Shown here one piece after another: positions 477-63,760 of a stretch of DNA of 64,000 nucleotides. The notes under the pieces are model-generated. The model searched no databases and was not told where the DNA came from. It worked only from the letters and a program-made list of their open reading frames with translations. Source of the stretch: Symbiodinium natans (lineage: Eukaryota > Sar > Dinophyceae > Suessiales > Symbiodiniaceae); NCBI GenBank assembly GCA_905221605.1, contig CAJNDS010000002.1:1181881-1245880 (forward strand), in the 5' to 3' direction. Within the stretch, counting starts at the first letter, position 1; each line of letters starts with the position of its first letter. The position numbers and the translations under genes were made by a program.

Positions 477-517
477 TCCCTAAACCCTAAACCCTAAACC
501 CTAAACCCTAAACCCTT
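477..517 (-). repeat. (CCCTAAA)n telomere-like array
   Basis: About six near-perfect heptamers. The spacer from 374 to 476 has stops in all minus-strand frames and is read as intron interior. Confidence 0.9.
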
Positions 518-610
518 ATCCGCCGAGATGCCGAAAGGCCCTGCTGGTGAGGCAATGACTCCCGGAACGAGCGCCTCGCAGCAATCGGTCTGGGGAGTTC
601 GGCTTCAAAG
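516..610 (-). CDS. Putative mini-exon (minus strand)
   Basis: This spacer between a CCCTAAA array and a TTTAGGG region is open on the minus strand and reads FEAELPRPIAARRSFRESLP before running into the array. The acceptor would be CCTTAAG|CTTTGAAG. The donor is unclear. No family is recognised. A stretch of this size can stay open by chance, so confidence is low. It is included because it fits the pattern of better-bounded spacers elsewhere in the window. Confidence 0.25.
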
Positions 611-628
611 CTTAAGGGTGTTGGGGTT

Positions 629-920
629 TAGGGTTTAGGCTTAGGGTATAGGGTTTGGGGGCTTAGAGTTTAAGGGTTTAGGGGTTTGGGGCTTTAGGGT
701 TTAGGGTTTTAGGAGCATAGTGTTTAAGGGTCCAGGGTTTCGGGGTTTTGGGGTTTAAGGGTTCGGGAGTATAGGGTTTAGGGGCATAGAGTTTAAGGGT
801 TTAGGTCTAGGGTGTTAGGGTTTGAGGCCTTTTTGGGGGCATAGGGGCTAAGGGTCTAGGGTTTAGGGTTTGAGGATTTGGGAATTTAGGGTTTCAGGGT
901 TTAAGATTTGTGGAGTTTTA
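629..920 (+). repeat. Degenerate TTTAGGG region
   Basis: Heptamers and 8- to 9-mers such as TTTAGGGG and TTTAAGGG with many substitutions. It looks like an old, decayed array. Nothing else is recognised up to 1108. Confidence 0.8.
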
Positions 921-1108
921 GGGTTTGTACGTAGGGTTTGTGGGCTTCGGAGCTGAGAACTTTGGGGACGAGGGTTGCGCGTTGCCGCTTCAAAATCTCC
1001 AAAAGACTCCTAAGGACCTCCCACCCTCCCCCAAAGACACAAGGCAAGGCAGAGAAAACCTGCGCCTAAAAGAGAAGCAAACATGCCGGTTTTGGGTGGA
1101 TCGAACCC

Positions 1109-1244
1109 TCCCTAAACCCTAAACCCTAAACCCTAAACCCTAAACCCTAAGCCCTAAACCCTAAACCCTAAACCCTAAACCCTAAACCCTAAACCCTAAA
1201 CCCTAAACCCTAAACCCTAAACCCTAAACCCTAAACCCTAAACC
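1109..1244 (-). repeat. Long (CCCTAAA)n array
   Basis: About 19 heptamers, nearly perfect apart from one CCCTAAG. One of the longest homogeneous blocks in the window. Confidence 0.95.
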
Positions 1245-1265
1245 CACCCACGCCCTACAAACCCT

Positions 1266-1378
1266 AAATCCTAGTTGAGGTGCGCTGCCTATCTGCGCAA
1301 GGGACGCCACAAGCCTCGATGGCGACGCAGGGATAGGTCTCCGCCGCGTCGCACAGCTTACGTCTCGGCCGGCTGAGG
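1266..1378 (-). CDS. Putative mini-exon (minus strand)
   Basis: Open across the spacer on the minus strand, reading LSRPRRKLCDAAETYPCVAI and onwards. The acceptor is CCCTCAG|CCGG. A second minus frame is also open, so the frame is uncertain. The spacer is flanked by CCCTAAA on the left and TTTAGGG on the right, the common arrangement for exon candidates here. Confidence 0.25.
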
Positions 1379-1385
1379 GCTTGGG

Positions 1386-1632
1386 GCTTCCAGGGTTTAG
1401 GGGTTTAGGGTTTAGGGTTAGGGGGTTCGGGCTTTAGGGTTTAGAGCTTGGGTTTAGGGTTTAGGGCTTGGGGTTTACCAGGGTTTAGGTTTTTAGGGTT
1501 AAGGGTTCAGGGTTTTCGGGCTCGGGGCTAAGGGCTTCTATAGGGCTTAGGGTCTGGGGTTTAGGGGGCTTAGGGGGTTTAGGGGGTTTAGGGGGTTTAG
1601 GGAGTTTGGGGGTTTAGGGGGTTTAGGGCTTT
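1386..1632 (+). repeat. Degenerate TTTAGGG and TTTAGGGGG array
   Basis: It starts with heptamers and drifts into TTTAGGGGG 9-mers around 1558-1632. From 1640 to 2060 there is only degenerate telomere-like sequence and unassigned DNA. Confidence 0.8.
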
Positions 1633-2093
1633 TTGGCTTATAGGCTTTAGTTTCTTCTCTTGGTTGAAGCTAGGGTAGGGAAGGGGGCTGCTAAGGCCTT
1701 GCTTAGTGTGTTTGAGCGGTTTTAATTGGCATTTAGGGTCTACCTCCGTATCTTCAGTTTGGGATTTCGGGTTTAGGGTCTGTGCCCTCCTTTCCTGAGC
1801 ACTTGTTGGGTTTAGGGGGTAGGGTTTGGTGTTTAGGGTTTAAACAGAACAACAAGGGTTTAGGGTTTAGGGACTAGGGTTGAGAGAGCTTTTTGGACGA
1901 CAAAACAGGGAGAATAGAGGGTTCTTTCAAGACCTGAAGCCCCAAGCCGTAATCAACCTAGGATCGGGAAGCTTAGAGAACAGTTCTCAGAACCATCTTT
2001 TGTCAGCTAAACCGGTAATGTCCGTTCCTTGGGTGCAGAAACTGCAACCTGCAACCTGCAACCTGCAACCCTAAACCCTAAACCCTAAACCCC

Positions 2094-2199
2094 CGGTCCA
2101 GGTAGCGAAAGCCCAGTCTGCAACTCTCCGGGGATCCAAGCATCTCGTCTTTGAGGTTGTGGCCCCAGACCTTCCCCGAAAAGAGCACATGAGGGCCTA
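2094..2199 (-). CDS. Putative mini-exon (minus strand)
   Basis: The spacer between CCCTAAA (left) and TTTAGGG (right) is open on the minus strand, reading GPHVLFSGKVWGHNLKDEML and onwards. A possible acceptor is CCGAGTAG|GCCC. No family is recognised. Chance openness cannot be excluded. Confidence 0.25.
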
Positions 2200-43540: not shown

Positions 43541-43619
43541 CTGGCACGGACTGGGTTTAGGGTTGTTTAGGGTTTAGGGTTTAGGATTTAGGGTTTAGGG
43601 TTAAAGGTTAAAGGTGTTT

Positions 43620-44229: not shown

Positions 44230-44268
44230 TCTGGGTTCGAGGGGACGGGCTCTCGGGATGCGGCGCAC

Positions 44269-44328: not shown

Positions 44329-45274
44329 CTGAACTGGAGGCGTCGGGCTTGGGGTTGACCCTAAACCCTAAACCCCAAACCCTAAACCCTAAACCCTAAA
44401 CCCGAATGAGCCCTCATTAACCCTGAGCCCTAAACTGTAAACCCTAAAGGGCGGCTGGTCAGGAGCTTGCAGGGTTGATATTGAGCTTTTAGGGCTTATG
44501 GGGCTTCTATATTTAGATGAGCTATTCTCCAAGTTTGAAGGTTCTCTTATATGTCCTGTATGGTACCGCACCTTAGGCAAAGGACCCCCCAAAAGGGACC
44601 CTAACTTAGAGAACTACCCTAAACCCAAAACCCAAAACCCAAAACCCTAAACCCAGTACAAGATGTAGGGTAAGGTCCCGAGCCCTGAAACTGTGCTCTG
44701 GGCTCCTGGTGCCTGTGTGTGCGAAAACTCTTCGAAACAGCTTCAGAAACTAACTTAGGGTTTAGGGTTTAGGGTTTATGGTTTAGGGTTTAGAGGTTGG
44801 CGGCAATGTCAGGGATGCCTCTAAGTGTAGATCTCAGCATCTAGGAGCCTGAAACATCTTACACTCTCAACTCACAACATCCATTATAGGTTGTATACAT
44901 ATATATATATATATGCTATCCCAGTGTAGGGACTGTGTAAGGGGCGGGGTGTTTTCCCCAAGGCTGCGATATAATAAAGTGCCATATCTGGCTGGTCCAC
45001 CCCCTTAAACCCACTGTAAGGACATGTGAAGAAGTTGATGGTGGCCGCCCCGCCCCCCCCCCCCCCCCCCCCCTCCCCGCCCTGGTCGCGCGCCCGCCAG
45101 TGGCTTTCAAGAGCGAAGATGAGGTGCTCCTTTGCTTTGGCGCCGGCTGGGACCTTTAGCCCTCGGTTCTGGCAATGTAAGGAGGCATCCGCTGAGCTCC
45201 TTCGGAGGCATAAACACGTCCAGGAATGTCACGTGCATGCTTTGCGGCTCAATCAGGATGTCTTCTTCGTGGTA

Positions 45275-45345
45275 AGGCCTAAACCCTAAACCCTAAACCC
45301 TAAGCCCTAAACCCTAAACCCTAAACCCTAAACCCTAAACCCTAA
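45275..45345 (-). repeat. (CCCTAAA)n array
   Basis: About ten heptamers. 44895-44914 holds a (TA)n tract and 45051-45073 poly-C. Confidence 0.9.
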
Positions 45346-45619
45346 TGGGATTTTGCGACGCCATTCAAACCTGGAGCGCAACCTTGCACCTCAAGTGCGT
45401 GGTGGCAGCGCTGACAGCTGCCGTCCTTCCTAAAGGCCCTCGAGACACTGCAACCCAAACCCTAAAACCCTAAACCCGAAACCCTAAACGTTAGCCCTAA
45501 ACCCTAAACCCTAAACCCTAAACCCATGAAGCTTGTTCCCTGATTATTAGGGTCCCTTTTTTCAGAGCAACTCCAAGGACGTCCCAAACGACCAGCCCCC
45601 CCAGACACAACCCCCGCAC

Positions 45620-45716
45620 CTAGAAATCCCCAAGCCCGAAAAGCCCTCCATGGCTCCTCCAACGCAGCCTTCAGGTCCTCGCGAAGGCGCCGGTACTGGA
45701 GGTCGGCAGCTTGCTG
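45620..45716 (-). CDS. Putative coiled-coil mini-exon (97 nt)
   Basis: Acceptor CTCGGGAG| and donor TTTCTAG|GTGCGG. Reads QQAADLQYRRLREDLKAALE, then EPWRAFRAWG. Strong helix signature. The acceptor edge GCTGCTCCCGAGACCTTTTG is duplicated at 45793-45812 beyond a short TTTAGGG array. Confidence 0.5.
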
Positions 45717-46039
45717 CTCCCGAGACCTTTTGGGGGGTTTAGTGTTTAGGGTTTAGGGTTTAGGGTTTGGGGTTTAGGGTTTAGGGTTTAGGGCTGCTCC
45801 CGAGACCTTTTGGGTTTACGGGGCTTCGTGGGGGTTTGGCGTTTAGGATTTAGGATTTAGGGTTTGAGGCGTTAGGGTTTTTGACCTCTGGGTTGATAGG
45901 GACTTAGGGGTGGGGGAGGAGGGGGGGGGGGGGGGATGGGGTTTAGGTGTTGATTGTTGAGGGGTTTAGGTTTAGCTCTCCTTTTCGGGTTTGGGGCGAT
46001 TTCGAGGCTCAGCGGTTGAGGCGCTTGGAGCCTCAATGT

Positions 46040-46185
46040 ACTTGGAGGTTCATGGTACTAATTAGCCAAATCATAACAGTACTTATACGACTGTGCTTAT
46101 AACCACATTAGGGCACTTAAGGGGCTTAAAAGTGGGTTCTAAGTACAGTTATAATTGGTTCATAAGCACCATGAACCTCCAAGTA
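46040..46185 (+). mobile_element. Fold-back element FB2
   Basis: ACTTGGAGGTTCATGGTACT left, GCACCATGAACCTCCAAGTA right. Long, nearly perfect arms. Confidence 0.8.
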
Positions 46186-46383
46186 GCGTTGAGAGGGTTT
46201 AGGGCCTCTAAACCGGAGCCAGAATCTCCATACCTGTGGAGCCATGCCAGTCGGCCCTATTAGGGTTTATATAGGGTTTAGGGTGTAGGCTTTATCCGCT
46301 GAGATGGCTACGGAGGAGGGTGGTTTTAGGGTCACCTTGCGGACTCATCGGCCTTTCTGTGTCTGACTGCCCATGGAGCATGG

Positions 46384-46535
46384 GGGCACTTAGTTAGTGG
46401 GGATACAAGAACCTTCATTGGGATGCTAAGTAGGCATAAGTATAGCTACCTTACTTATAGTAGGTATAAGTATGGTTACCTTACTTAGAAAAGTAGGTAT
46501 AAGTATAGTTGCCTTACTTATAACTCACGTAGTAA
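46384..46535. mobile_element. Fold-back element FB8 with internal tandem copies
   Basis: GGGGGCACTTAGTTAGTGGGG left, CACGTAGTAAGTCCCC right. AGTAGGTATAAGTATAG plus YTACCTTACTTATA repeats three times inside. Confidence 0.6.
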
Positions 46536-46552
46536 GTCCCCTGATCCTTGAG

Positions 46553-46734
46553 TTGTGGACTTGGCCACATCCCAAATCTCAGAATCGCAGGAACCCCTGT
46601 CGGACCGCGTAGCTCCAAAAAACGATCACACAGGCGATCAAAATTCAGATCTTCCAAAATTTTCCCTGGGAGGCCAGCATTTCTTGACATGCGCTTCAAG
46701 ATGACACCTCTTCGCAATAAAACGGACGAAAGAA
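46553..46734 (-). CDS. Putative exon (minus strand)
   Basis: From acceptor AACTGGCAG| the minus strand reads LRRGVILKRMSRNAGLPGKI, then LEDLNFDRLCDRFLELRG and onwards to RFGMWPSPQLKDQ, where it enters the FB8 element. It looks like a real globular-protein segment but is not recognised. A plus-strand frame opposite is also open. Confidence 0.3.
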
Positions 46735-46794
46735 CTGCCAGTTAAACAGGACCGGGTTGTGGGGTTTAAAGTTTTGGAGTTTAGGGTTTAGGGG

Positions 46795-46975
46795 TTTTCG
46801 GATCTTAAGGGTTTAAGGGTTTCAGGGTTAATGGTTAAGGGTTTAGGGGTTTAAGGGTTTAAGGGTTTAAGGGTTGAAGGGTTTAAGGGTTTAGGGGTTT
46901 AGGGGTTTAGGGGTTTAGGGTTAGGGTTTAGGGTTTAGGGTTTAGGGTTTAGGGCTAGGGTTTAGGGCTTTGTAG
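46795..46975 (+). repeat. (GGGTTTAA)n and TTTAGGG array
   Basis: Octamers GGGTTTAA, then GGGGTTTA, then heptamers, in order, so unit length changes along the block. Confidence 0.85.
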
Positions 46976-46990
46976 TCGGGAGCTGTGGAC

Positions 46991-47041
46991 GCCGGGCCTT
47001 GTGATGAGCTCATCACCCAATGCCTTGATCTTCTGAGCCAC
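46991..47041 (-). CDS. Putative mini-exon (51 nt)
   Basis: Acceptor CCCCAAG| and donor CCCGGC|GTCCAC. Reads VAQKIKALGDELITRPG. TTTAGGG-type DNA on both sides. Confidence 0.45.
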
Positions 47042-47199
47042 CTTGGGGAGATCCCCAGAGGAAGGCAGGAATAGAAAAGGGCCAATGTTTAGGGTTTAGG
47101 GTTTAGGGCTTAGGGCTTAGGGCTTAGGGTTTAGGGTTTAAGGTTTAGGATTTAGGGTTTAGGCGTTAGGCGTTTAGGGTTTAGGGTTTGGGGCACACC

Positions 47200-47700
47200 C
47201 ACACTGGCGTCCTAGGGTGGTGCATCCCCTCGAAACTGGGTTCCGGGTTTGTAGGTGTTAGGGCTTTTAGGGCGTTGAGTATTCTCAGGGTCTCGGAGGT
47301 TCCCTATGCTGGGTCTGCTGTGCTACAAGCGCGAGACGACTGAAGCCCCCTGGGGTTTTGGATTTCGGTCTCTGGGATGAAGCCTTGTGGGAAGCTTTCG
47401 AGAAACAACCGCCACGCATCCTTGATTGCCAAAGCCACAAATCCCAGAGGAGTATATAAATACAAAAATCAATAAACGTCAAAGATTTCAAATGCTCTTG
47501 ATCCTGTTTTACCTTGTTGTATATACCGAAATGCTTGATATGGTGGTCTTTCATTTCGTTGTCCCTCAAAATGCTTTCCACCTAAAGTGTTGATTGTTGA
47601 TCATTCCACCAACAAATCCAAAATAAGCTAATCCTCCTTCTTTAAAACAATTCTACAATATCACTTCTTGCTGGTGCCTAAACCATCTAGAGAAGGCATA
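47200..47700. other. AT-richer single-copy stretch
   Basis: The minus strand is open from about 47581 to 47285. It begins ESILRDNEMKDHHIKHFGIY and has a GTAAAA donor-like site after ACAACAAG. Coding status uncertain. Base composition differs from the neighbours. Confidence 0.3.
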
Positions 47701-48119
47701 AAGCATAAACCCTAAATCCTAAACCCTCGACCCTAACCCCGCCAACCTGAACCTAAGACCCCCTCCAGGCACACGTGCATCCCTGGTTGAAAGGGCTCGT
47801 GAACACTTCCAGTCTGGGCTGCGAGTAGGCATGTCACCGTAACAATTTGCGCTACTTCTTAGGGTTTAGGGTTTAGGGCTTAGGGTTTAGGGTTTAGGGT
47901 TTAGGAGCCCTCCAAGAACTCTGAAGCTTAAACCCTAGAACTTCAAACCCTCCCTGAAGGTTCATGAGTACGAATTCGGTCGGGTGGCAATGACCCTTGC
48001 TAATTTCCAGGCACATATCCCCTAAACCCTAAGCCCTGAACCCTGAACCCGAAACCCGAAACCCTAAACCCTAAACCCTAAACCCTAAACTAAAAAAACA
48101 AATCAAGTGCTGGGCCCAC

Positions 48120-48173
48120 CTCTGTCTCTGTTGCCGCGCGCTCCTTCGTCTCAGTTTCGAGGTCTGCTCGCGC
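48120..48173 (-). CDS. Putative coiled-coil mini-exon (54 nt, 18 codons)
   Basis: Acceptor CCTGTTCTCAACAG| with a good pyrimidine tract and donor ACAGAG|GTGGGC. Reads ARADLETETKERAATETE. Both borders are close to consensus. Confidence 0.6.
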
Positions 48174-48377
48174 CTGTTGAGAACAGGTTCTGGTTTAGTA
48201 GGGTTTCGCCCTAGGGTTTAGGGTTTGGGTTTGCGGTTTAGGGTTTGGGGTTTGGGGTTTAGGGTCTAGGGTATAGGGTTGCCGGGTTTCGACCTAAAGG
48301 GTTTTCCCTGACACCTAAACCCTGAACCCTAAAGCCTAAACCCTAACACCCTGAACCCGAAACCCTAAACCCTAAAC

Positions 48378-48465
48378 CCTGGAGGTTTAGGGTCTGGGGG
48401 CTGTCCCAGGCCTTCTTCATTCGGAGCTCGAGGCTCTCAAACATGGCCAAGCGAAGGCCGCGCTC
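48378..48465 (-). CDS. Putative coiled-coil mini-exon (88 nt)
   Basis: Acceptor AACTAGCCACAG| and donor CCAGG|GTTTAGG. Reads ERGLRLAMFESLELRMKKAW and onwards. An upstream stop in frame lies just before the acceptor, which supports the border. Confidence 0.5.
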
Positions 48466-48691: not shown

Positions 48692-51600
48692 GACCTTTAG
48701 GTATAATGTGAGGTAGCCTCTTTGTTTAGTATTGGGGGCCTAGCCCGGGCTTCCCCCCAATACTGAATCACGAGCCCGGGCCTCCCCCCAATACTAAATC
48801 ACGAGCCCGGCCCTCCCCCCAATACTAAATCACGAGCCCGCGCTTCCCCCCAATACTAAATCACGAGCCCGGGCCTCCCCCCAATACTAAATCACGAGCC
48901 CGGGCTCGTAATTTAGTATTGGGGGAATTTCTATTTCAAAGATTTCAAAGATTTCAAAGGTTGCAAAAGGCGGGGGAAACTCCCGGGAAGTTTCCCAAAC
49001 CTTTTGCAACCTTTGAAATCTTTGAAATCTTTGAAATAGAAATTCCCCCCTTGCTTCCCCAATACTAAACCACGAGCCCGGGCTTTCCCCCAATACTAAA
49101 TCACGAGCCCGGGCTTCCCCCCAATACGAAATCACGAGCCCGGGCTTCACCCCTAATACTAAATCACGAGCCCGGCCCTCCCCCCAATACTAAATCACGA
49201 GCCCGGCCCTCCCCCCAATACTGAATCACGAGCCCGGCCCTCCCCCAAATACTAAATCACGAGCCCGGGCCTCCCCCCAATACTAAATCACGAGCCCGGG
49301 CTCGTAATTTAGTATTGGGGGAATTTCTATTTCAAAGATTTCAAAGATTTCAAAGATTTCAAAGGTTGCAAAAGGCGGGGGAAACTCCCGGGAAGTTTCC
49401 CAAACCTTTTGCGACCTTTGAAATCTTTGAAATCTTTGAAATCTTTGAAATAGAAATTCCCCCCGGGCTTCCCCAATACTAAACCACGAGCCCGGGCTTC
49501 CCCCCAATACTAAATCACGAGCCCGGGCTTCCCCCCAATACTAAATCACGAGCCCGGGCTTCACCCCTAATACTAAATCACGAGCCCGGCCCTCCCCCCA
49601 ATACTAAATCACGAGCCCGGGCCTCTCCCCAATACTAAATCACGAGCCCGGCCCTCCCCCCAATACTAAATCACGAGCCCGGGCTTCCCCCCAATACTAA
49701 ATCACGAGCCCGGGCTCGTAATTTAGTATTGGGGGAATTTCTATTTCAAAGATTTCAAAGATTTCAAAGGTTGCAAAAGGCGGGGGAAACTCCCGGGAAG
49801 TTTCCCAAACCTTTTGCAACCTTTGAAATCTTTGAAATCTTTGAAATCTTTGAAATTTGAAATAGAAATTCCCCCAACACTAAATAACAGCCCGGGCTCC
49901 ATTTAGTATGGGGGGAGGGCCGGGCTCGTGATTTAGTATTGGGGGGAAGCCCGGGCTCGTGATTTAGTATTGGGGGGAAGCCCGGGCTCGTAATTTAGTA
50001 TTGGTGGAAGCCCGGGCTCGTAATTTAGTATGGGGGAATTTCTATTTCAAAGATTTCAAAGATGTTCAAAGATTTTCAAGTTTGCAAAAGGCGGGGGAAA
50101 CTCCCGGGAAGTTCCCAAACCTTTTGCAACCTTTGAAATCTTTGAAATCTTTGAAATAGAAATTCCCCCAATGCTAAATTACGAGCCCGGGCTCGTGATT
50201 TAGTATTGGGGGGAGGGCGGGGCTCGTGATTTAGTATTGGGGGGAAGCCCGGGCTCGTGATTTAGTATTGGGGGGAAGCCCGGGCTCGTGATTTAGTATT
50301 GGGGGGAAGCCCGGGCTCGTAATTTAGTATTGGGGGAATTTCTATTTCAAAGATATTTCAAAGAATTCAAAGATTTCAAAGGTTGCAAAAGGCGGGGAAA
50401 CTCCCGGGAATTTCCCCCGCCTTTTGCAACCTTTGAAATCTTTGAAATCTTTGAAATAGAAATTCCCCCAATGCTAAATTACGAGCCCGGGCTCGTGATC
50501 TAGTATTGGGGGGAAGCCCGGGCTCGTGATTTAGTATTGGGGGGAAGGGCCGGGCTCGTGATTTAGTATTGGGGGGAAGCGCGGGCTCGTGATTTAGTAT
50601 TGGGGGGAGGGCCGGGCTCGTCATTTAATATTGGGGAGGCCCGGGGGCAATTTCTATTTCAGAGATTTCAATCATTTCAAAGATTTCAAAGGTTGCAAAA
50701 GGCGGGGGAAACTCCCGGGAAGTTTCCCAAACCTTTTGCAACCTTTGAAATCTTTGAAATCTTTGAAATAGAAATTCCCCCAATACTAAATTACGAGCCC
50801 GGGCTCGTGATTTAGTATTGGGGGGAGGCCCGGGCTCGTGATTTAGTATTTGGGGGAGGGCCGGGCTCGTGATTTAGTATTGGGGAGAGGCCCGGGCTCG
50901 GGATTTAGTATTGGGGGGAGGGCCGGGCTCGTGATTTAGTATTGGGGTGAAGCCCGGCTCGTGATTTAGTATTGGGGGGAAGCCCGGGCTCGTGATTTAG
51001 TATTGGGGGGAAGCCCGGGCTCGTGGTTTAGTATTGGGGAAGCCCGGCGGAAATTTCTATTTCAAGATTTCAAAATTTCAAAGATTTCAAAGATTTCAAA
51101 GGTTGCAAAAGGTTTGGGAAACTTCCCGGGAGTTTCCCCCGCCTTTTGCAACCTTTGAAATCTTTGAAATCTTTGAAATCTTTAAAATAGAAATTCCCCC
51201 AATACTAAATTACAAGCCCGGGCTCGTGATTTAGTATTGGGGGGAGGCCCGGGCTCATGATTTAGTATTTGGGGGAGGGCCGGGCTCGTGATTTAGTATT
51301 GGGGGGAGGCCCGGGCTCGTGATTTAGTATTGGGGGGAGGGCCGGGCTCGTGATTTAGTATTAGGGGTGAAGCCCGGCCTCGTGATTTCGTATTGGGGGG
51401 AAGCCCGGGCTCGTGATTTAGTATTGGGGGGAAGCCCGGGCTCGTGGTTTAGTATTGGGGAAGCCCGGGGGGAATTTCTATTTCAAAGATTTCAAAGATT
51501 TCAAAGGTTGCAAAAGGTTTGGGAAACTTACCGGGAGTTTTCCCCCGCCTTTTGCAACCTTTGAAATCTTTGAAATAGAAATTCCCCCAATACTAAATTA

Positions 51601-54600
51601 CGAGCCCGGGCTCGTGATTTAGTATTGGGGGGAAGCCCGGGCTCGTGATTTAGTATTGGGGGGAAGGGCCGGGCTCGTGATTTAGTATTGGGGGGAAGCC
51701 CGGGCTCGTAATTTAGTATTGGGTGGAAGCCCGGGCTCGTAATTTAGTATTGGGGGAATTTCTATTTCAAAGATTTCAAAAATTTCAAAGATTTCAAAGG
51801 TTGCAAAAGGCGGGGGAAACTCCCGGGAAGTTTCCCAAACCTTTTGCAACCTTTGAAATCTTTGAAATCTTTGAAATAGAAATTCCCCCAATACTAAATT
51901 ACGAGCCCGGGCTCGTGATTTAGTATTGGGGGGAAGCCCGGGCTCGTGATTTAGTATTGGGGGGAGGGCCGGGCTCGTGATTTAGTATTGGGGAAAGGCC
52001 CGGGCTCGTGATTTAGTATTGGGGGGAGGGCCGGGCTCGTGATTTAGTATTAGGGGTGAAGCCCGGGCTCGTGATTTAGTATTGGGGGCAAGCCCGGGCT
52101 CGTGATTTAGTATTGGGGGGAAGCCCGGGCTCGTGGTTTAGTATTGGGGAAGCCCGGCGGGAATTTCTATTTCAAAGATTTCAAAGATTTCAAAGGTTGC
52201 AAAAGGTTTGGGAAACTTCCCGGGAGTTTCCCCCGCCTTTTGCAACCTTTGAAATCTTTGACATCTTTGAAATCTTTGAAATAGAATTTCCCCCAATACT
52301 AAATTACAAGCCCGGGCTCGTGATTTAGTATTGGGGGGAGGCCCGGGCTCGTGATTTAGTATTTGGGGGAGGGCCGGGCTCGTGATTTAGTATTGGGGGA
52401 GGGCCGGGCTCGTGATTTAGTATTGGGGGGAAGGGCCGGGCTCGTGATTTAGGATTGGGGGGAAGCCCGGGCTCGTGATTTAGTATTGGGGGGAAGCCCG
52501 GGCTCGTAATTTAGTATTGGGGGAATTTCTATTTCAAAGATTTCAAAGATTTCAAAGGTTGCAAAAGGCGGGGAAACTCCCGGGAATTTCCCCCGCCTTT
52601 TGCAACCTTTGAAATCTTTGAAATCTTTGAAATAGAAATTCCCCCAATGCTAAATTACGAGCCCGGGCTCGTGATCTAGTATTGGGGGGAAGCCCGGGCT
52701 CGTGATTTAGTATTGGGGGGGAAGCCCGGGCTCGTGGTTTAGTGTTGGGGAAGCCCGGGGGGAATTTCTATTTCAAAGATTTCAAAGAATTCAAAGATTT
52801 CAAAGGTTGCAAAAGGTTTGGGAAACTTCCCGGGAGTTTCCCCCGCCTTTTGCAACCTTTGAAATCTTTGAAATCTTTGAAATCTTTGTTCCCCCAATAC
52901 TAAATTACGAGCCCGGGCTCGTGATCTAGTATTGGGGGGAAGCCCGGGCTCGTGATTTAGCATTGGGGGGAAGCCCGGGCTCGTGGTTTAGTATTGGGGA
53001 AGCCCGGGGGGAATTTCTATTTCAAAGATTTCAAAGATTTCAAAGATTTCAAAGGTTGCAAAAGGTTTGGGAAACTTCCCGGGAGTTTCCCCCGCCTTTT
53101 GCAACCTTTGAAATCTTTGAAATCTTTGAAATAGAAATTCCCCCAATACTAAATTACGAGCCCGGGCTCGTGATTTAGTATTGGGGGGAAGCCCGGGCTC
53201 GTGATTTAGTATTGGGGGGAGGGCCGGGCTCGTGATTTAGTATTGGGGAGAGGCCTGGGCTCGTGATTTAGTGTTGGGGGGAGGGCCGGGCGCGTGATTT
53301 AGTATTAGGGGTGAAGGTTGGGGCTCGTGATTTAGTATTGGTGGGAAGCCCGGGCTCGTGATTTAGTATTGGGGGGAAGCCCGGGCTCGTGGTTTAGTAT
53401 TGGGGAAGCCCGGCGGGAATTTCTATTTCAAAGATTTCAAAGATTTCAAAGATTTCAAAGGTTGCAAAAGGTTTGGGAAACTTCCCGGGAGTTTCCCCCG
53501 CCTTTTGCAACCTTTGAAATCTTTGAAATCTTTGAAATCTTTGAAATAGAAATTCCCCCAGTACTAAATTACGAGCCCGGGCTCGTGATTTAGTATTGGG
53601 GGGAGGCCCGGGCTCGTGATTTAGTATTTGGGGGAGGGCCGGGCTCGTGATTTAGTATTGGGGGGAGGCCCGGGCTCGTGATTAGTATTGGGGGGAGGGC
53701 CGGGCTCGTGATTTAGTATTAGGGGTGAAGCCCGGGCTCGTGATTTCGTATTGGGGGAAAGCCCGGGCTCGTGATTTAGTATTGGGGTGAGGCCCGGGCT
53801 CGTGGTTTAGTATTGGGGAAGCCCGGGGGGAATTTCTATTTCAAAGATTTCAAAGATTTCAAAGGTTGCAAAAGGTTTGGGAAACTTCCCGGGAGTTTCC
53901 CCCGCCTCTTGCAACCTTTGAAATCTTTGAAATCTTTGAAATAGAAATTCCCCCAATACTAAATTACGAGCCCGGGCTCGTGATTTAGTATTGGGGGGAA
54001 GCCCGGGCTCGTGATTTAGTATTGGGGGGAGGGCCGGGCTCGTGATTTAGTATTGGGGGGAGGCCCGGGCTCGTGATTTAGTATTGGGGGGAGGGCTGGG
54101 CTCGTGATTTAGTATTAGGGTGAAGCCCGGGCTCGTGATTTAATATTGGGGGGAAGCCCGGGCTCGTGATTTAGTATTGGGGGGAAGGGGCTCGTGGTTT
54201 AGTATTGGGGAAGCCCGGGGGGAATTTCTATTTCAAAGATTTCAAAGATTTCAAAGATTTCAAAGGTTGCAAAAGGTTTGGGAAACTTCCCGGGAGTTTC
54301 CCCCGCCTTTTGCAACCTTTGAAATCTTTGAAATCTTTGAAATAGAAATTCCCCCAATACTAAATTACGAGCCCGGGCTCGTGATTTAGTATTGGGGGGA
54401 AGCCCGGGCTCGTGATTTAGTATTGGGGGGAAGCGCGGGCTCGTGATTTAGTATTGGGGGGAAGCGCGGGCTCGTGATTTAGTATTGGGGGGAGGGCCGG
54501 GCTCGTGATTTAGTATTGGGGGGAGGCCCGGGCTCGTGATTCAGTATTGGGGGGAAGCCCGGGCTAGGCCCCCAATACTAAACAAAGAGGCTACCTCACA

Positions 54601-57003: not shown

Positions 57004-57348
57004 ATGGCAGAGGTCCGAGAAAGCGACCGCAAAATGCCACCCTCAGCTCTGTCCGAAGCAAACGCCGGACATTCATCTGAGCAGGAGCGTCGCGCCCGGG
57101 AAACGCTTCAGGCTCTGCCGCAAATCCCGCGAACCAAACGCATTCCTTGGATCTTGGGTCTGGTTGAGTGGGCGGCTAAGGGCTTCGAAAGGGGTTTTGA
57201 GGCTATGGAAGAGAATGTGGATGACGGCCGGCGGCCGAACCGAAAACCCGACGCGAAACGAAAGAGGCACACACAACATTACACCACATCCAAAAGCCGA
57301 GAAGTCCGCTACTGCAGCTCCAGATATGGGACTGTGAGCTGCGAATAG
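57004..57348 (+). CDS. Hypothetical ORF, strand uncertain
   Basis: 114 codons from an ATG, reading MAEVRESDRKMPPSALSEAN and, further on, KRIPWILGLVEWAAKGFERG. Protein-like in the middle, basic at the C-terminus. It would be the only plus-strand gene in the window. A minus-strand frame overlaps it. No family recognised. Confidence 0.25.
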   Translation: MAEVRESDRKMPPSALSEANAGHSSEQERRARETLQALPQIPRTKRIPWILGLVEWAAKGFERGFEAMEENVDDGRRPNRKPDAKRKRHTQHYTTSKSREVRYCSSRYGTVSCE

Positions 57349-57463
57349 GTGCGAGATAACTCTTACAGCCGAGAGATCCCTTGAGCTGATTGCAACAAAA
57401 AAAACCAGGAAGAACGGTTGCGGCTGTTCCTGGACTAAAGACATCCCTACACAAAGTAACCTG

Positions 57464-57592
57464 TCAATCTCGGCACAGCGTCCGCTCTTGGAAGATGCGC
57501 ACAGGGTCGTTGACTTCATCGAAGGCAACCCGTTCCTGGGCGCGTACGTCCGGTCCCAGGTTCGCAAGATTTCGCAACAACCACATCCTTGA
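57464..57592 (-). CDS. Putative exon, both strands open
   Basis: The minus strand reads LLRNLANLGPDVRAQERVAF and onwards to FDEVNDPVRIFQERTLCRD. The plus strand of the same DNA reads LLEDAHRVVDFIEGNPFLGA. Both look protein-like. Minus is preferred only because neighbours are minus. Confidence 0.3.
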   Translation of the reverse strand, partial: SRMWLLRNLANLGPDVRAQERVAFDEVNDPVRIFQERTLCRD

Positions 57593-57611
57593 TAGGGATT
57601 CTCGGGATTCT

Positions 57612-57672
57612 AGTACCCCCCCTTATAGTCCCGATTATTAAGGGCTGTTAATATAAGGGGGAACATCCCAGC
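57612..57672 (+). mobile_element. FB4 short copy
   Basis: CCCCCCTTATAGTCCCGATT and TTAATATAAGGGGGAACATC. Inverted ends. The stretch 57673-58480 is single-copy with short frames on both strands and no recognised gene. Confidence 0.6.
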
Positions 57673-58481
57673 ATGGAGCAGGGAAGCATGGGCGTGGCAA
57701 GTACTCAGTTCAGCATTCCGATCCCACAAGAACGCACCGTAGCTACAGCAGAGCTCGAGATGAAGCAGTGCCAAGTCAGAATGTCACCTGCACCAGAACA
57801 TGTCCAGGAGGCGTTGACGCTACCTCGTACCACGTGAAGACTTGCTACAGTCATTATGCGACTGTGATCTCGTTAGGCTTTCCTGCTTAATCGGCTTTCA
57901 GTTCTCCTGGCGCGTCCAATTCCCCAACAAGGAAGGGGTCAAGAAAATTATGAGCTTGAATTCCCGTGTCTTCCTTGCAGAGACACACTACTCCAAATAT
58001 CTCCCGACCCTAAACTCTCTCTTCAAGGGAGTCTTGCAAAGTGAGCGGCTGCCTTCCAGTACTCCGAGGAGTCCAGCTCTTTCTTTGTCACAGGCAAGGA
58101 CGGCAGGTACTCCACCTGAAACCGTTGCCACTCAATCTGCTCTGTTTTGCATGTCACCCTCACTCGGTAAGACTTCCTGCTTCTCCAACGGACCCCAAAT
58201 CAGAGGGAAACATCGTCAGAGTACTGGGGCCTGCCATCTGCTTGCGTTGTGATACGTAGTCTGTACATTCTCGGTAGCCTCCAGGACCCGTCGGAACACC
58301 GCCCAATTCCTACGCGCTCAACCCAAAGCTGTGTGCGAGCCAGACACATCCTGTGGCTTCATGCCGCCCGCTTCCTGAGAATCATGGCTGGAAAACCCGT
58401 TCGCTGCTTGCAAAGATCCCAGATTCCCCTTGCCAGCAATACCAGAAGCAAAGACGCTGGAATGTAACAGCCTGGCCCAGC

Positions 58482-58578
58482 CCCTGCCCACTCTGCCGTC
58501 AAGCACACAAACAACTGATTGCATGTGCAAGGATCGTTGGCGATGCGAAAGAACGTGTTGAGTTCCTCCAAGCTCCTC
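58482..58578 (-). CDS. Putative exon (minus strand)
   Basis: After acceptor CTTCCCGCGCAG| the minus strand reads SLEELNTFFRIANDPCTCNQ and onwards to LFVCLTAEWA. A long plus-strand frame (58353-58973) lies opposite, so the strand remains open. Confidence 0.3.
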
Positions 58579-59089
58579 CTGCGCGGGAAGCAGTGGCAGC
58601 ATCCGCAGGTGCTGCTTTTCACATAGCGCACTTTTTGTCAGATTGGATTTACAGCGTGCTTCGGCGAGGGCAGAAGCTCCGGTACAGCTTGTCGGCGACG
58701 TCGGCGTCTAGACGTTCGCTAAGCTTGTCTCCTTACGCTGCCACGCCAAAGAGCTTCTTCTCTGGGAGGCTCCAGGGCTGGAAGGTTCTCCAGGGCTATG
58801 ACTCCCTTAAACATCGGGATCTAAACAGATCGTTTATGCTACCTCTACCACAGCTGGGTTGGGGTGCCCTGCATGCTGTAAGGCCATCATACACTGTGAC
58901 TGTTGAAGGCAGCCAGTGTGGATCGCCACAGCATTCAGGAGACAGTGCTACCCAACCCCTATATCGGTCCTAAATCCTAAAGCCTAGAATATAGGAAGTC
59001 GCGCATGCGACCTTACGCCTCAAACGTGTTTGTTGTCGGGGTCACTCTGTTGGCAGACAAGGCCCCGAGCACCACCCCAAGTCCTTATC

Positions 59090-59213
59090 CCCTAAACCCT
59101 AAACCCTAAACCCTAAACCCTAAACCCTAAACCCTAAACCCTAAACCCTAAACCCTAAACCCCAAACCCTAAACCCTATAAACCCTAAACCCCGTAACCC
59201 CCTAACCCTAAAC
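59090..59213 (-). repeat. (CCCTAAA)n array
   Basis: About 12 perfect heptamers and then degenerate units up to the donor of the next exon candidate. Confidence 0.9.
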
Positions 59214-59284
59214 TGGCCAAGTGTCCAAGTTCCTTCACAGTCGTCTGGAACTTTCCAGCAGCCTTTCTTGCTTGATCCGCCTCG
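59214..59284 (-). CDS. Putative coiled-coil mini-exon (71 nt)
   Basis: Acceptor GATTGATTGTTGCAG| and donor GGCCA|GTTTAGGG. Reads EADQARKAAGKFQTTVKELG and onwards to HLA. Branch-point-like TTGAT and a clean AG. One of the best supported. Confidence 0.6.
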
Positions 59285-59693
59285 CTGCAACAATCAATCG
59301 AGAGTTTGGCGGCTTTGCAAAAGGGGTTTCTGGAGTTGGGCCCAGGTGCCCAGACCCCCGGCCCCAACCAGAAGCCCCCTGACCCGAACCCTGAAAGCCC
59401 TAAACTCTAAACCCTAAAATCCCTACAGCCCGAAAAGCCCGTTTAAAGCCCGAAAGAGCCCTAGACCCTAAAAACATTATTCAACCCTGAACCCCCCAGA
59501 ACCACCCAAAAGCCTTAAACCCAAAACCCCTGAAACAAAAAAAACACAAAAGCCCTAACCCCTAAACCCACCCCCCCCCCCCCCCCAAAAAAAAAAAAAA
59601 AAACCATGAGCTGCGTTTGGGGGGTTCAAGGCGTGGAGATGTGCTGGCCTTCAGCCTGAGGCTTGCTGAAGGGTTCGGCCCCACGGAGAGGAG

Positions 59694-59800
59694 TTTAGGG
59701 TTTAGGGTTTAGGGTTTAGGGTTTAGGGTTTATGGGTTTTGGGTTTTGGGTTTAGGGTTTAGGGTTTAGGGTTTAGTGTTTAGGGTTTAGGGTTTAGGGG
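59694..59800 (+). repeat. (TTTAGGG)n array
   Basis: About 14 units, two of them TTTTGGG. 59565-59603 is poly-C followed by poly-A. Confidence 0.9.
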
Positions 59801-60055
59801 CCTTTCGGGTCTGAGAGTTCGAGTCTTATAGAGGGGCCTTGGTCTAGCGACTCCAAAGGTGCTCGTGAGAATTGGGGATCTCTCCACGGGGCTTCTAGCT
59901 TGGCTTTAGGATTTTACTTGGGACCCTCTTTACCTACAGTTTAATGGGTTGTACCTACTAATTAAGGGGTAGCTACTAAACTGTATGTAAATCGAGCCCC
60001 AGGTAGCATACCTAGCCTCCCCCAAGCGTTCGTCAGACTTCGGGAAGCTCTGTCA

Positions 60056-60110
60056 GCGTGCGGCAAGTTCTTCCCGTGCCAAGTCTCGTAGCTGGTCTCG
60101 GGATCCCAGA
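60056..60110 (-). CDS. Putative mini-exon (minus strand)
   Basis: Reads SLGSRDQLRDLAREELAAR after acceptor TTCGAAG|. The only donor nearby would be a GC type (GCAC|GCTGAC). A second minus frame is open, so the frame is a guess. Confidence 0.3.
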
Positions 60111-60653
60111 CTTCGAAGCCCACCATCCTTAGTTTTAGGGTTTAGGGTTTAGGGTTTAGGGTTTTGGGTTTAGGGTTTAGGGTTTAGGTCGTTTAGGTCG
60201 TTTAGGTCGTTTAGAGCTTGGGAGAGGGGTGTAGAGTGTCCGGCCAGGGTACCAAGATCGGGATTCCGTCTTGTCCAGCGGTGGCCCTTTGAAAAATATT
60301 TCTGAATTCGATCTTCTTAACAAAACCCAATAGGGGAAAATACGCCATTTCCCAAAGGCTAAACCATAAACCCTAAACCCTGAAGTACTTGAAAGTTCTG
60401 GTAAGTGCCCGGCAGAAAAAGCGGCGTGGTCAAGGCACCTCGACAATCTCAATAGGCTTGCAGGTTCAAAGCCGCAAAGCCGCCATTTATGGGCACGTTA
60501 TATGGTTAAACATGGTGTCTATAGCGCACCTAATGATATCACAACTTGAGCTCATTCTCCCAAGAAAAAACGTTTACCCAGAAAAAAAGCGGAGCCATGC
60601 ACCTGCCGGGAAGGGTGGAGCGTTTACATCCTTGGGTTCCTCGTCCGCACGAA

Positions 60654-60893
60654 CTAATATCGCAACGGTATCGTCACCAAACCGCAACCCAACTGCTGAA
60701 AGCAACATCGAACGGTGTCCGCAAGGATTTGTTGTATCGCCCCAAATGACAGTACGCCCCAAAAGACGCTGCGGAAAACAACAATATTAGAAGATACTTC
60801 TCGCACCCTCTCTAATGAGCAGGGTCGTGTTTTCAAGAACCACTTTGTAGCCAGTACGTGTTCAACAGTCACGGGGTCTTCATTGGCCAGCAC
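60654..60893 (-). CDS. Hypothetical ORF or exon
   Basis: Minus frame LANEDPVTVEHVLATKWFLK, then TRPCSLERVREVSSNI and onwards. The first codon is GTG, so it is more likely an exon than a complete gene. No family recognised. Confidence 0.3.
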   Translation of the reverse strand: MLANEDPVTVEHVLATKWFLKTRPCSLERVREVSSNIVVFRSVFWGVLSFGAIQQILADTVRCCFQQLGCGLVTIPLRY

Positions 60894-61088
60894 GTGTTCT
60901 CAACTTACCCTTTTCTTGGCTGCTAGCTGCTCCCATTGGCTCGTTCTGAACTGTGAGTCCGCTTCACCCCTAACCTTACCTTGCCAAAACCCTCGAAAAA
61001 CCCTATGAAACCCTCTAACAAACCCTTCGCAAATAATGAAAGCCTGCAATGAACTTTACTGAATCTAAGCCGCAAAACATCCTCAAAC

Positions 61089-61141
61089 CCTGAATGTGGA
61101 CAAGCCGCGCTCCACCTGCGACAAGCCTCCAGGCCCTTGCC
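61089..61141 (-). CDS. Putative mini-exon (53 nt)
   Basis: Acceptor CCGTGAACAG| and donor TCAGG|GTTTGAGG. Reads GKGLEACRRWSAACPHS. An internal CGCAG|GTGGAG could be an alternative donor. Confidence 0.5.
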
Positions 61142-61465
61142 CTGTTCACGGAATTCGGGTTTATAGGGTTTAGGGTTTAGGGGTTAGGGCTGAGGGCGTC
61201 AAGGGTTCCTTTGGGAGTGAACTGGTCTGGGGCAAGCATCGGAATTTGCGTGCTTTGAGTTTCAAGAACTGTAACTGGAGGACTCATGCTGCAGAGGCTT
61301 GTAGAGGTTGTCGCATCGGATCTTGGGGGCTAAGCTTGCGCTCAAACACTAAACCCTGAACCTAAACCCTAAACCCTTAACCCTAAACCCTTAACCCTAA
61401 ACCCTTAATCCTAAACCCTTAACCCGAGACCCTAAACCCTGAACCCTGAACCCTGAAACCTAAAC

Positions 61466-61505
61466 CCTGGCCTGAGGACACCAGAGCTTTCAGCTGAGTC
61501 AATGC
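61466..61505 (-). CDS. Putative mini-exon (40 nt)
   Basis: Acceptor TCGTGCAGCAG| and donor CCAGG|GTTTAGG. Reads ALTQLKALVSSGQ. Confidence 0.5.
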
Positions 61506-61554
61506 CTGCTGCACGAAATCGAGTCATGGCATGGCAGCCCACCGAAAACACATG

Positions 61555-61657
61555 GAGTTTCCGAAATTAGGGGGTACCTTATTGGGGTGCTTATTCTCAG
61601 GGAATCCTACTACTTCGGGTCCATATTAGGGGTCGCCTATTTCGTAAGCCCCCACGT
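61555..61657. mobile_element. Fold-back element FB5
   Basis: GGAGTTTCCGAAATTAGGGG left, CCTATTTCGTAAGCCCCCAC right. Confidence 0.65.
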
Positions 61658-62360
61658 GGCTCCTTCAGTAACTCGGCTGACCCACATGGGTATTTCCTGG
61701 ATAGGCGTATTTCTTTTTTAAAATTACCTCCAAATACATAGAACCCCCTTATCAAGGGACGCCTCGCAACACGGTAAGTATAGGCTTGAGGGCTCACGCT
61801 TGGAGGATGTGCCCAGGCACTTTGGGGGTAGTCCAGAGTTTAGGGTTTAGATTCCACTGGGTCGAGTGGCTCAGAGGTTTGGGCTTTCCTTGTTGGGATT
61901 TAGAGGACGGGCAATGCAAGCCCAAGCGTGGGGCGACGTGCTTCAACCCACTGAGTTCTCACACCCGTTGCTGTCGGCTCTAAGCCAATTCTTGTGCCCA
62001 CAACCTTAGTGTGAGGTTCTTGGTAAGAGGGGGCGGAGTTCCGAGCCGCGAGTGCTTGGATCGGGCCCCTGGGCCCCTGGATCGTGGACGAAAAATGAAA
62101 CAACTAACCTCTTTGATGATACTGGAGATCGAGGGGCCTGCCCAGCCGAGCACAGCCCACCACCGCAGTTCTCGTCACTGACCTGAAAGACAGCCCAAGG
62201 AAGAGGCTTGTTTTCGAGGTTCTAACCCTAAACCCTAAATCAACCCTAAACCCTAAATCTATAGTTAGGGCCTCTTTTTTAGGGAAACCTACCCACAGCA
62301 ACAACCAAGGGATCCGGCCTTGAGGCCATCTGGGACATCTTCGCCACCGCCCCTGCGATG

Positions 62361-62436
62361 CGGCACCCTGAACCCCTAAACCCCTAAACCCCTAAACCCC
62401 TAAACCCCTAAACCCCTAAACCCCTAAACCCTAAAC
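62361..62436 (-). repeat. (CCCCTAAA)n octamer array
   Basis: Seven CCCCTAAA octamers followed by two heptamers. Confidence 0.9.
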
Positions 62437-62484
62437 CCTAAGACGGCTGTAAGTAGAGTCTCCGTGAAAAACATCCGAGACACC
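62437..62484 (-). CDS. Putative mini-exon (48 nt)
   Basis: Acceptor CAATTTGTTCAG| and donor TTAGG|GTTTAGGG. Reads VSRMFFTETLLTAVL. A plus-strand reading opposite is also open but lacks good sites. Confidence 0.35.
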
Positions 62485-62582
62485 CTGAACAAATTGTGAG
62501 CCCTAAACGCGGCCAAGTTATGCAAACTGTATGAATCCCCCCCCCCCCCCATGCCCACAGCTTGGGTTGTTCCCCTTTTTTC

Positions 62583-62672
62583 TAACAGTCCTTAGTAGGG
62601 ATACTGTAGGGATTATCATAGGGGGGGACGATATTCCCTATTCAGACTGTGAGTATAAGGTGCAACATCCCA
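62583..62672 (+). mobile_element. FB4 copy
   Basis: AACAGTCCTTAGTAGGGATA left, TTCAGACTGTGAGTATAAGG right. Confidence 0.5.
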
Positions 62673-62950
62673 GCCCACAGCCTCGAAACGACATCTCCGA
62701 CAAAAAAGCGATACCATTCGGCGGCTTCTCGAACAGACACCGCCTGGCAAAGGAAGCTCGTCCCGCCGCATGGGTTTTTGCCCGTATTCTGGGAAGGACT
62801 TGCTTAAATTTTGGCAAGTGATGCGCACTTCCTGAATCGCCAGAGTCGCATGCATCAAGCATTGAGGGCCTAACAGCCTCCCGCAAGGGAAGCCTTACAC
62901 ATCCTTACACCCTTTTCCCAAATCCGATAAAAAAACCCTAAACCCTGAAC

Positions 62951-63049
62951 CCTGTCAAACTTAAGCCGGACAGAAATGGACGGCGCCTTGCCCCTGTACA
63001 GCGCCATGCGTTCCTCCGGGCCTACCGACAAGTCGATTTGGGGAGGCGG
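62951..63049 (-). CDS. Putative exon (99 nt, 33 codons)
   Basis: Acceptor CACTGGGAAG| and donor GACAGG|GTTCAGGG, the latter in a telomere-variant unit. Reads PPPQIDLSVGPEERMALYRG, then KAPSISVRLKFDR. Amphipathic, strand-like. Looks like a globular-domain segment. Together with 63156-63325 it may belong to the start of the same gene. Confidence 0.6.
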
Positions 63050-63155
63050 CTTCCCAGTGTCTCCATTACCCGTCCAATTTTGACATGGATGGCAAATGCA
63101 TCCGTCACTAGTGGGATGTTGGTTGATGAAGGGGTATTGGGGTGCCTGGGTTCAT

Positions 63156-63325
63156 TTAGCGACAGCAGGGCTCTAATCTAAGTTCGCTGTGGCCTCCGGC
63201 CGACAGGAACACGCAGACTGTGATCAGTTCTCCTTCCCCCGGCTCCACTTGCATGTTGTATTGCAAAAGAACGTGAGAAGCCCTGCTCAGCACAGCTGCA
63301 TCCACGAGAGTTATGGAAAATTGGC
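63156..63325 (-). CDS. Putative exon (minus strand)
   Basis: After acceptor CAACAAACTAG| it reads QFSITLVDAAVLSRASHVLL and onwards to ITVCVFLSAGGHSELRLEP. Alternating hydrophobic residues suggest beta strands. The frame is also open upstream to an ATG at 63491 (MLVRLGGQRCCRLLEFLGRC). Donor uncertain. Family not recognised. Confidence 0.5.
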
Positions 63326-63589
63326 CTAGTTTGTTGGTGGGAGAACCCTTTCTTTGGTGTTTTTTGGACTTCTTGGCTAGCACTATTCTACCCTGAAAAA
63401 ACCCCCCACGGGCCCTGCTGGGCTCGTGCCGGCAGCGACCCAAAAACTCCAAGAGCCGGCAGCAGCGCTGACCGCCGAGCCTTACCAGCATGAGGGTTCA
63501 GGCTTAGGTGAAGGGGTCATGGGGGTTCACGGCCCTAGGGCTTGGGAATCTTAAGGCTTTGGGTTTAGGACTTGGGGGGCTCCAGGACT

Positions 63590-63760
63590 CCAACATGCCG
63601 AGCCAAGAGAAGGTGAGATCGGTGTGCGGACCATGGACCATAGTGTTTGTTCTCGAGACCTTCTCGGCGAACTGCGAAACTGTCGCTCTTGGAGATCCGA
63701 AGTGCGAAGCCGTCGTCGCTGTTTGTTCCTGGCCTCGCTAATCAGGCGTCCATCTGTTGG
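63590..63760 (-). CDS. Putative exon (minus strand)
   Basis: After acceptor GTGACTTGCAG| it reads PTDGRLISEARNKQRRRLRT, then SDLQERQFRSSPRRSREQ and onwards. Very basic. A donor may be CGAGAAG|GTCTCG, which would end the exon near 63666. A plus-strand frame stays open from 63633 to the window end, so the strand is not settled. Confidence 0.35.

Follow-up and report, generated by a model that had tools for sequence, protein, structure and literature searches.

We found that a 64,000-nucleotide (nt) stretch of the Symbiodinium natans genome (C2:1181881-1245880, a mid-scaffold region of contig CAJNDS010000002.1, called the window below) contains two minus-strand genes, A and B, which are divided into tiny exons and whose introns carry arrays of telomere-type repeat (TTTAGGG or CCCTAAA) in an orientation that follows the exons. 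The exons of both genes, their order and strand, their open frames and their placeable junctions were shown by homology or by agreement with an annotated protein, that is, by sequence comparison. We consider it highly probable that A and B are ordinary minus-strand genes with many tiny exons, that their introns were later enlarged by arrays and are still spliced, and that the polarity of the arrays arises from what splicing tolerates. An original prediction, made from the letters of the window, had proposed one or a few minus-strand genes of tiny exons amid telomere-type repeat and had suggested joining the exons and searching dinoflagellate proteins; the joined exons do match such proteins, so the minus-strand mini-exons are real, and two genes could be placed.

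Gene B lies at 26828..48465 on the minus strand, with 18 exons found and an 816-nt open frame, stop included. When 13 minus-strand pieces from 48.5 to 33.7 kilobases (kb) were joined in order and searched, three out of 4,535 candidates matched at an expectation value (E) up to 10: P0001 from S. natans (74% identity over 77%, E 9.7e-56), P0002 from Effrenium voratum (63% identity over 60%, E 8.0e-37) and P0003 from a metagenome (66% identity over 44%, E 2.1e-27). P0001 is evidently the annotation of the gene B locus itself, and hence gene B is already annotated; P0002 and P0003 provide independent homology support. The refined 18-exon frame is identical to the last 220 residues of P0001 (exons 4-18), and 10 out of the 13 query pieces, which were chosen before P0001 was known, fall within this identical part. 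Exons 1-9 (48412 to 41008) match P0002 by tblastn, six at E 0.13 or better and three more weakly. The first ten residues of P0001 map to 46,352-46,381; the placed frame instead runs through three exons further upstream, placed following P0002 and P0003. The features of gene B are:

48412-48465, minus strand: exon 1, tblastn with P0002
48120-48173, minus strand: exon 2, tblastn with P0002
46998-47041, minus strand: exon 3, tblastn with P0002
45657-45726, minus strand: exon 4, tblastn with P0002, and P0001
44269-44328, minus strand: exon 5, tblastn with P0002, and P0001
43493-43540, minus strand: exon 6, tblastn with P0002, and P0001
42634-42663, minus strand: exon 7, tblastn with P0002, and P0001
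42117-42152, minus strand: exon 8, tblastn with P0002, and P0001
41008-41070, minus strand: exon 9, tblastn with P0002, and P0001
39623-39676, minus strand: exon 10, P0001 alone
38397-38426, minus strand: exon 11, P0001 alone
37377-37418, minus strand: exon 12, P0001 alone
36763-36795, minus strand: exon 13, P0001 alone
35277-35303, minus strand: exon 14, P0001 alone
33733-33788, minus strand: exon 15, P0001 alone
31495-31539, minus strand: exon 16, P0001 alone
28241-28278, minus strand: exon 17, P0001 alone
26828-26859, minus strand: exon 18, stop included, P0001 alone
26860..48411, minus strand: 17 introns, mean 1,225 nt, 33% telomere-type repeat

The product is a coiled-coil-like protein with no assigned function: no Pfam family passed the cut-off for gene B or for the homologs searched, and SF-assemblin, considered as its family, received no Pfam support. 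Several other elements lie in or beside gene B. A 128-codon open frame with hydrophobic stretches (29448-29831, minus strand) sits within an intron and has the top codon score of the window (22.4), with no Pfam family over the cut-off. Introns 3, 9, 15 and 16 share short, partly palindromic elements on the minus strand, and the element of intron 15 is 79% identical to that of intron 3 over 141 base pairs (bp), inverted. Shortly 3' of the stop are two LAGLIDADG_3 homing-endonuclease-like domains (25985-26594, minus strand; Pfam E 5e-8 and 2e-5, both over the cut-off). Elsewhere in the genome, one of the gene B exons has a diverged copy (L056, C2442:177385-177492) that is 74% identical to P0001 over 27 residues.

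Gene A occupies 57073..63480 on the minus strand, with 16 exons found (the exon search stopped at 63,480 on the 5' side) and a 738-nt open frame giving 245 residues to the stop. A search with stitched pieces from 55-63 kb gave three matches out of 275 candidates. P0004 matched with 44% over 42% of the query at E 3.1e-13, P0005 from S. pilosum at E 9.0e-12 and P0006 at E 3.6e-5. With these proteins, tblastn gave collinear minus-strand matches on 11 out of the 16 exons (E up to 0.01); the other five were fitted into collinear gaps by hand, and splicing gives a frame that is open to the stop. The features of gene A are:

63414-63480, minus strand: exon 1, tblastn with P0004/P0005/P0006
62987-63021, minus strand: exon 2, by hand, from P0004
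62682-62743, minus strand: exon 3, tblastn with P0004/P0005/P0006
62319-62352, minus strand: exon 4, tblastn with P0004/P0005/P0006
62138-62182, minus strand: exon 5, tblastn with P0004/P0005/P0006
61472-61505, minus strand: exon 6, by hand, collinear gap
61109-61135, minus strand: exon 7, by hand, collinear gap
60414-60438, minus strand: exon 8, by hand, collinear gap
60088-60127, minus strand: exon 9, tblastn with P0004/P0005/P0006
59226-59280, minus strand: exon 10, tblastn with P0004/P0005/P0006
58680-58731, minus strand: exon 11, tblastn with P0004/P0005/P0006
58536-58578, minus strand: exon 12, tblastn with P0004/P0005/P0006
58348-58374, minus strand: exon 13, by hand, collinear gap
58050-58115, minus strand: exon 14, tblastn with P0004/P0005/P0006
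57483-57535, minus strand: exon 15, tblastn with P0004/P0005/P0006
57073-57145, minus strand: exon 16, stop included, tblastn with P0004/P0005/P0006
57146..63413, minus strand: 15 introns, mean 378 nt, 17% telomere-type repeat

P0004 has no similar PDB chain at E up to 1, and neither it nor gene A matches a Pfam family over the cut-off. Its N-terminus presumably resembles a thylakoid-lumen signal.

Across both genes, the 34 exons measure 25-73 nt (mean 45.7), not the 35-150 nt that had been predicted, and 20 of them match proteins of other organisms collinearly by tblastn. All 32 acceptors are AG, with G as the next base in 32 out of 32; an AGG shared by both borders leaves the cut uncertain by a few bases, and it was set at AG|G by convention. 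The donors are GC at 19, GA at 9 and GT at 4 of the 32 junctions, not the uniform GT expected after each exon. Published values for S. natans are GC 58, GA 18.4 and GT 23.6% for donors and 97.1% for AGG, with a mean exon of 106 and a mean intron of 486 bases (PMC10666404). Mini-exons with GC, GA or GT donors are therefore ordinary for this species, with genes A and B at the short end, and the oddity that the original prediction implied for the exons disappears. The unusual part is the introns, with their telomere-type content and a polarity tied to exons.

The seven intervals put forward as best in the original prediction all overlap placed exons, all on the minus strand (those at 33.7 and 37.4 kb were placed from P0001 alone, and that at 63.0 kb by hand from P0004). 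Its acceptors were right in five out of seven and its donors in two, so that both borders were right only for 44269-44328 and 48120-48173; of the five GT donors that were wrong, four stand at the start of a repeat unit (GTTTAGGG or GTTCAGGG). That the introns contain telomere-type repeat was correct, but at 33% of intron bases in gene B and 17% in gene A the claim that they largely consist of it was overstated. The proposed window-long chain holds for the 34 exons between 26,828 and 63,480; the part to the left of 26.8 kb was not confirmed, as 15 stitched candidate pieces from it gave no match at E up to 10 among 2,336 candidates.

To place the arrays in context, we searched a genome of 759,417,921 bases in 2,543 contigs and masked arrays as 14-mers with up to 3 mismatches to telomere-type TTTAGGG/CCCTAAA. 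Such arrays make up 28.6% of the bases of the window (TTTAGGG 13.7% and CCCTAAA 14.9%, as read on the plus strand). A telomere-type 24-mer has 1,068,777 forward and 1,069,729 reverse sites in the genome (25 and 30 for the reversed control), at a mean density of 2.8 per kb versus 4.75 per kb in the window. The telomere-type share is uneven: it is 32-65% of bases at five out of 34 profiled dynein and chaperonin loci, which overlap partly, and at most 4% at the other 29. The tandem TTTAGGG-type repeats here sit away from chromosome ends, as in interstitial telomeric sequences.

The polarity of these arrays was scored in the coding sense, with random unmasked spots in the window or the local background as control. 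Among the 17 gene B introns, the array closest to the donor is TTTAGGG-type (G-type) in 13 and the one closest to the acceptor is CCCTAAA-type (C-type) in 15. We pooled gene B with 19 exons from loci on scaffolds C1812, C2036, C1971 and C96 and found a C-type nearest upstream array in 31 out of 37 and a G-type nearest downstream array in 27 out of 36; both orientations hold in 25 out of 36, against 23% of random unmasked window spots (p 4e-9). The C1812 borders in this set are approximate, and C1812 alone gave 10 and 9 out of 14. The exons on C2036, N-terminal exons of the gene B family, are each set between CCCTAAA and TTTAGGG arrays. For 13 further dynein exons from C96 and C1971, fetched afterwards, the orientation holds upstream in 13, downstream in 9 and on both sides in 9, against local backgrounds of 67%, 46% and 30% (p 0.005, 0.08 and 0.004). 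At the telomere-poorer end, the nearest downstream array of gene A exons is TTTAGGG in 11 out of 13, and the first 150 nt of its introns hold 366 masked bases of G-type and 0 of C-type; the last 150 nt are mixed (160 and 126). Summed over the three sets, the counts are 49 out of 62 upstream and 47 out of 62 downstream. This polarity belongs to the exons, because array order across the whole window is approximately random (CG 88, GC 87, CC 71, GG 53). In the gene region, exons make up 12.7% of the bases of spacers of the order C-G (35 spacers), 6.1% for C-C (41), 3.4% for G-G (33) and 0.6% for G-C (27).

How splicing could generate this pattern is suggested by the repeat itself. In the transcript sense, a perfect CCCTAAA array contains no G, hence no AG acceptor and no GT, GC or GA donor, and pyrimidines account for four of its seven bases; a TTTAGGG array offers AG|G and GT in every unit. 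The AGG density is accordingly 95.9 per kb in G-type arrays, 3.8 in C-type arrays and 21.5 in unmasked DNA, and the 32 introns have on average 0.81 AGG in their last 60 nt and 2.59 in their first 60 nt, against 1.66 for random stretches. We propose that the arrays enlarged introns that already existed, that the ordinary spliceosome would still remove them, and that splicing would tolerate only some array orientations, which is the most likely reason for the polarity. A CCCTAAA array would be harmless just ahead of a 3' splice site. A TTTAGGG array before a real acceptor would form a row of decoy acceptors, and selection against these may keep it away; just after a donor it would be tolerable, because an acceptor there would lie too close to be used. 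A role for CCCTAAA as branch point was considered and is unsupported by the branch-site motif CTRAY, which is present in the last 60 nt of one out of 17 gene B introns.

That the introns are probably older than the arrays is suggested by one dynein exon in three genes, not by genes A or B themselves. This 69-nt exon (GCC...AAG, encoding ALHL...TK) has the borders AG|GCC and AAG|GA in C1757, which is telomere-poor, and in C1971 and C96, which are telomere-rich; the GAC after AAG is common to all three before they diverge, and the 3' border may be as many as three bases beyond the one given. In C1757 the preceding intron measures 53 nt (read from two flanks), and in C1812 about 1.7 kb. The introns of this exon thus occur with and without arrays, and therefore arrays probably invaded older introns. 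The architecture of genes A and B is also found in dynein genes on three scaffolds other than theirs; on C1812, 14 pieces of a dynein heavy-chain gene lie in order over 15 kb. Within the same genome, a dynein heavy chain that is uninterrupted (L018, C158) is related to one split into eleven or more small exons (L059, C96): eleven C96 pieces, spread over 8.8 kb, correspond to a single unbroken frame on C158, with identities of 52-95% (70% or more for seven out of eleven), and the C158 frame is a natural intron-free counterpart of the C96 dynein.

Several observations weigh against this interpretation. Gene A breaks the acceptor-side rule, with a CCCTAAA nearest upstream array in 5 out of 12, and one of its acceptors has six AGG decoys within 60 nt. 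The downstream side of the further C96 and C1971 exons is not significant by itself (9 out of 13 versus 46%, p 0.08), and avoidance of decoys alone leaves the rarity of CCCTAAA just after donors unexplained; on the donor side, G-runs may act positively, or intron ends may pair. At most a third of the intron DNA is telomere-type repeat. Because AG|G was imposed during junction placement, the 32 out of 32 is partly by construction, and the gene models rest on homology and an annotated protein. P0001, as the annotation of its own locus, is not independent, and gene B exons 10-18 are supported by it alone; both genes and their architecture stand without these exons. Finally, N-terminal exons of the gene B family lie on another contig (L055, C2036:73488-76577): E. 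voratum residues 112-151 match there and were not found upstream of gene B in 15.5 kb of the window plus 10 kb beyond. C2036 may represent a misjoin, a split gene or a paralog.

Other origins for the arrays can be considered. They might be the terminal inverted repeats of DNA elements of introner type, which would have created the introns on insertion and supplied the splice sites through target-site duplications, as gene B introns mostly start with TTTAGGG and end with CCCTAAA, the donor equals the first two bases of the next exon in 9 out of 17 gene B introns (p 0.04), and introners with 4-bp duplications and terminal inverted repeats are reported for S. microadriaticum in excerpts of PMC9860276. 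Boundary direct repeats also slightly exceed shuffled pairings (sum 67, p 0.03), but these are mostly the shared AGG; the inverted arrays of gene B are not flush with the intron ends, and their pattern does not extend to the 3' ends of gene A introns. Although outside the arrays 8 intron pairs, involving 11 out of 32 introns, have short elements in common that are dispersed and in part palindromic, the other 21 introns match no other at E 1e-3, and no element is common to most. Since the ALHL...TK exon has unchanged borders in the C1757 paralog, where arrays are lacking, its introns did not arise with the arrays, and we regard an introner origin as unlikely. Somewhat less unlikely, though still doubtful, is that breaks within introns were healed by telomerase or by copying of telomeric RNA, which added TTTAGGG to both sides before the ends were joined head to head (TTTAGGG...CCCTAAA), leaving exon fragments that look capped like tiny chromosomes. 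The array orientation is that of two joined telomeres, and excerpts of PMC7215372 describe mammalian interstitial telomeric repeats inserted at double-strand breaks; such healing would predict a uniform order everywhere, however, whereas order in the window is near random and polarity is tied to exons. It would explain origin and is compatible with splicing as the explanation of polarity. Equally tentative is the idea that the arrays enlarge introns across the genome and that the splicing machinery reads their orientation, the G-free CCCTAAA strand being a safe or helpful 3' approach and TTTAGGG a donor-side tract. Pairing between any intron start and any intron end would then hold exons together, with circular RNAs or exon skipping as by-products. 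Predicted pairing of intron ends averages -61 kcal/mol for 5' with 3' of the same intron, -59 across an exon and -56 between different introns (5' with 5' -49, 3' with 3' -26, shuffled -38); pairing is general and therefore cannot tell which intron ends meet.

A decayed gene relic or an artefact of assembly is an improbable explanation of the exon chain. The match of E. voratum residues 112-151 to C2036 and the orientation-flipping satellite between the two genes (described below) would fit such a history, but both spliced frames are open, 20 out of 34 exons are collinear with proteins of other organisms, and dyneins on three other scaffolds share the architecture. Chance openness of short spacers between arrays can be dismissed almost entirely. 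Admittedly, GT-AG candidates are nearly as frequent on the plus strand (127) as on the minus strand (162; 31 and 44 with scores above 8), and a codon scan at a score of 9 or more gave 18 segments on the minus and 10 on the plus strand; the reversed window gave 14 and 7, and shuffled spacers 2 on each strand. The predicted minus-strand excess is thus present but weak, and we discarded both scans as proof of strand; exons were accepted because of homology, not the count of open spacers. With homology reaching E 1e-55 in collinear order, chance is already refuted for 26.8-63.5 kb; no such refutation applies to the left part. Overall, our observations favor ordinary genes whose array-bearing introns are presumably still spliced.

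Further repeats and a spliced-leader sequence were noted along the scaffold. One feature lies between genes A and B, outside the exon chain:

48742..54565: 31-bp satellite (AGCCCGGGCTCGTGATTTAGTATTGGGGGGA) in ~400-bp units, orientation flipping near 49.86 kb

By eye, units resembling this satellite also occur near 38.1-38.3 kb. The intervals 22141-22867 and 23446-24382 hold a 52-bp tandem unit that is palindromic around a central CTCGAG, and a 91-bp tandem array of telomere-like pieces. The dinoflagellate spliced leader DinoSL has 205 exact sites in the genome (reversed control 0), at least one of them on scaffold C2; the window has none even when 3 mismatches are allowed. At L047 (C2:2025066), the spliced-leader sequence stands immediately behind CCCTAAAC and is followed by ATG, the pattern expected of a retroposed mRNA.

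These findings raise the question of how the cell finds 30-nt exons among repeats with a decoy splice site every seven bases, and make it directly testable whether simple repeats shape splicing or are shaped by it. They also carry a warning for gene finders, as reading by GT-AG leads to decoys within the repeat, which happened at four out of seven donors in the original prediction. Introners of dinoflagellates have reportedly been treated by Roy et al. in 2023 (Curr Biol). In the literature searched, as far as its accessible portions go, we found no description of telomere-type arrays as oriented intron content in dinoflagellates. Genes of S. natans CCMP2548 are alike in their GC, GA and GT donors, AG|G acceptors, about 15 introns per gene and short exons, according to excerpts of PMC8045281 and PMC10666404; they differ in that exons of A and B average 46 versus 106 nt and gene B introns 1,225 versus 486 nt. 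Telomere-type intron content is not mentioned in the available part of the genome paper, whose main text has 0 matches to 'telomer' (PMC8045281). Introners, as excerpts of PMC9860276, PMC7789003 and PMC10666404 present them, likewise have complementary intron ends and short direct repeats at some borders; the arrays here are instead simple telomere-type tandem repeats, and the introns of one tested exon also occur without them. Interstitial telomeric sequences, from the portion of PMC7215372 consulted, share internal telomere-type repeats, some intronic and head to head, and their effect on splicing is named there only as interesting to test. In the window, by comparison, such repeats are a major part of intron DNA and are oriented relative to exons. 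Thus, intronic telomere-type repeats are known in mammals, and what S. natans adds is their large share of the introns, their presence in genes of ~15 introns each and an orientation that follows the exons.

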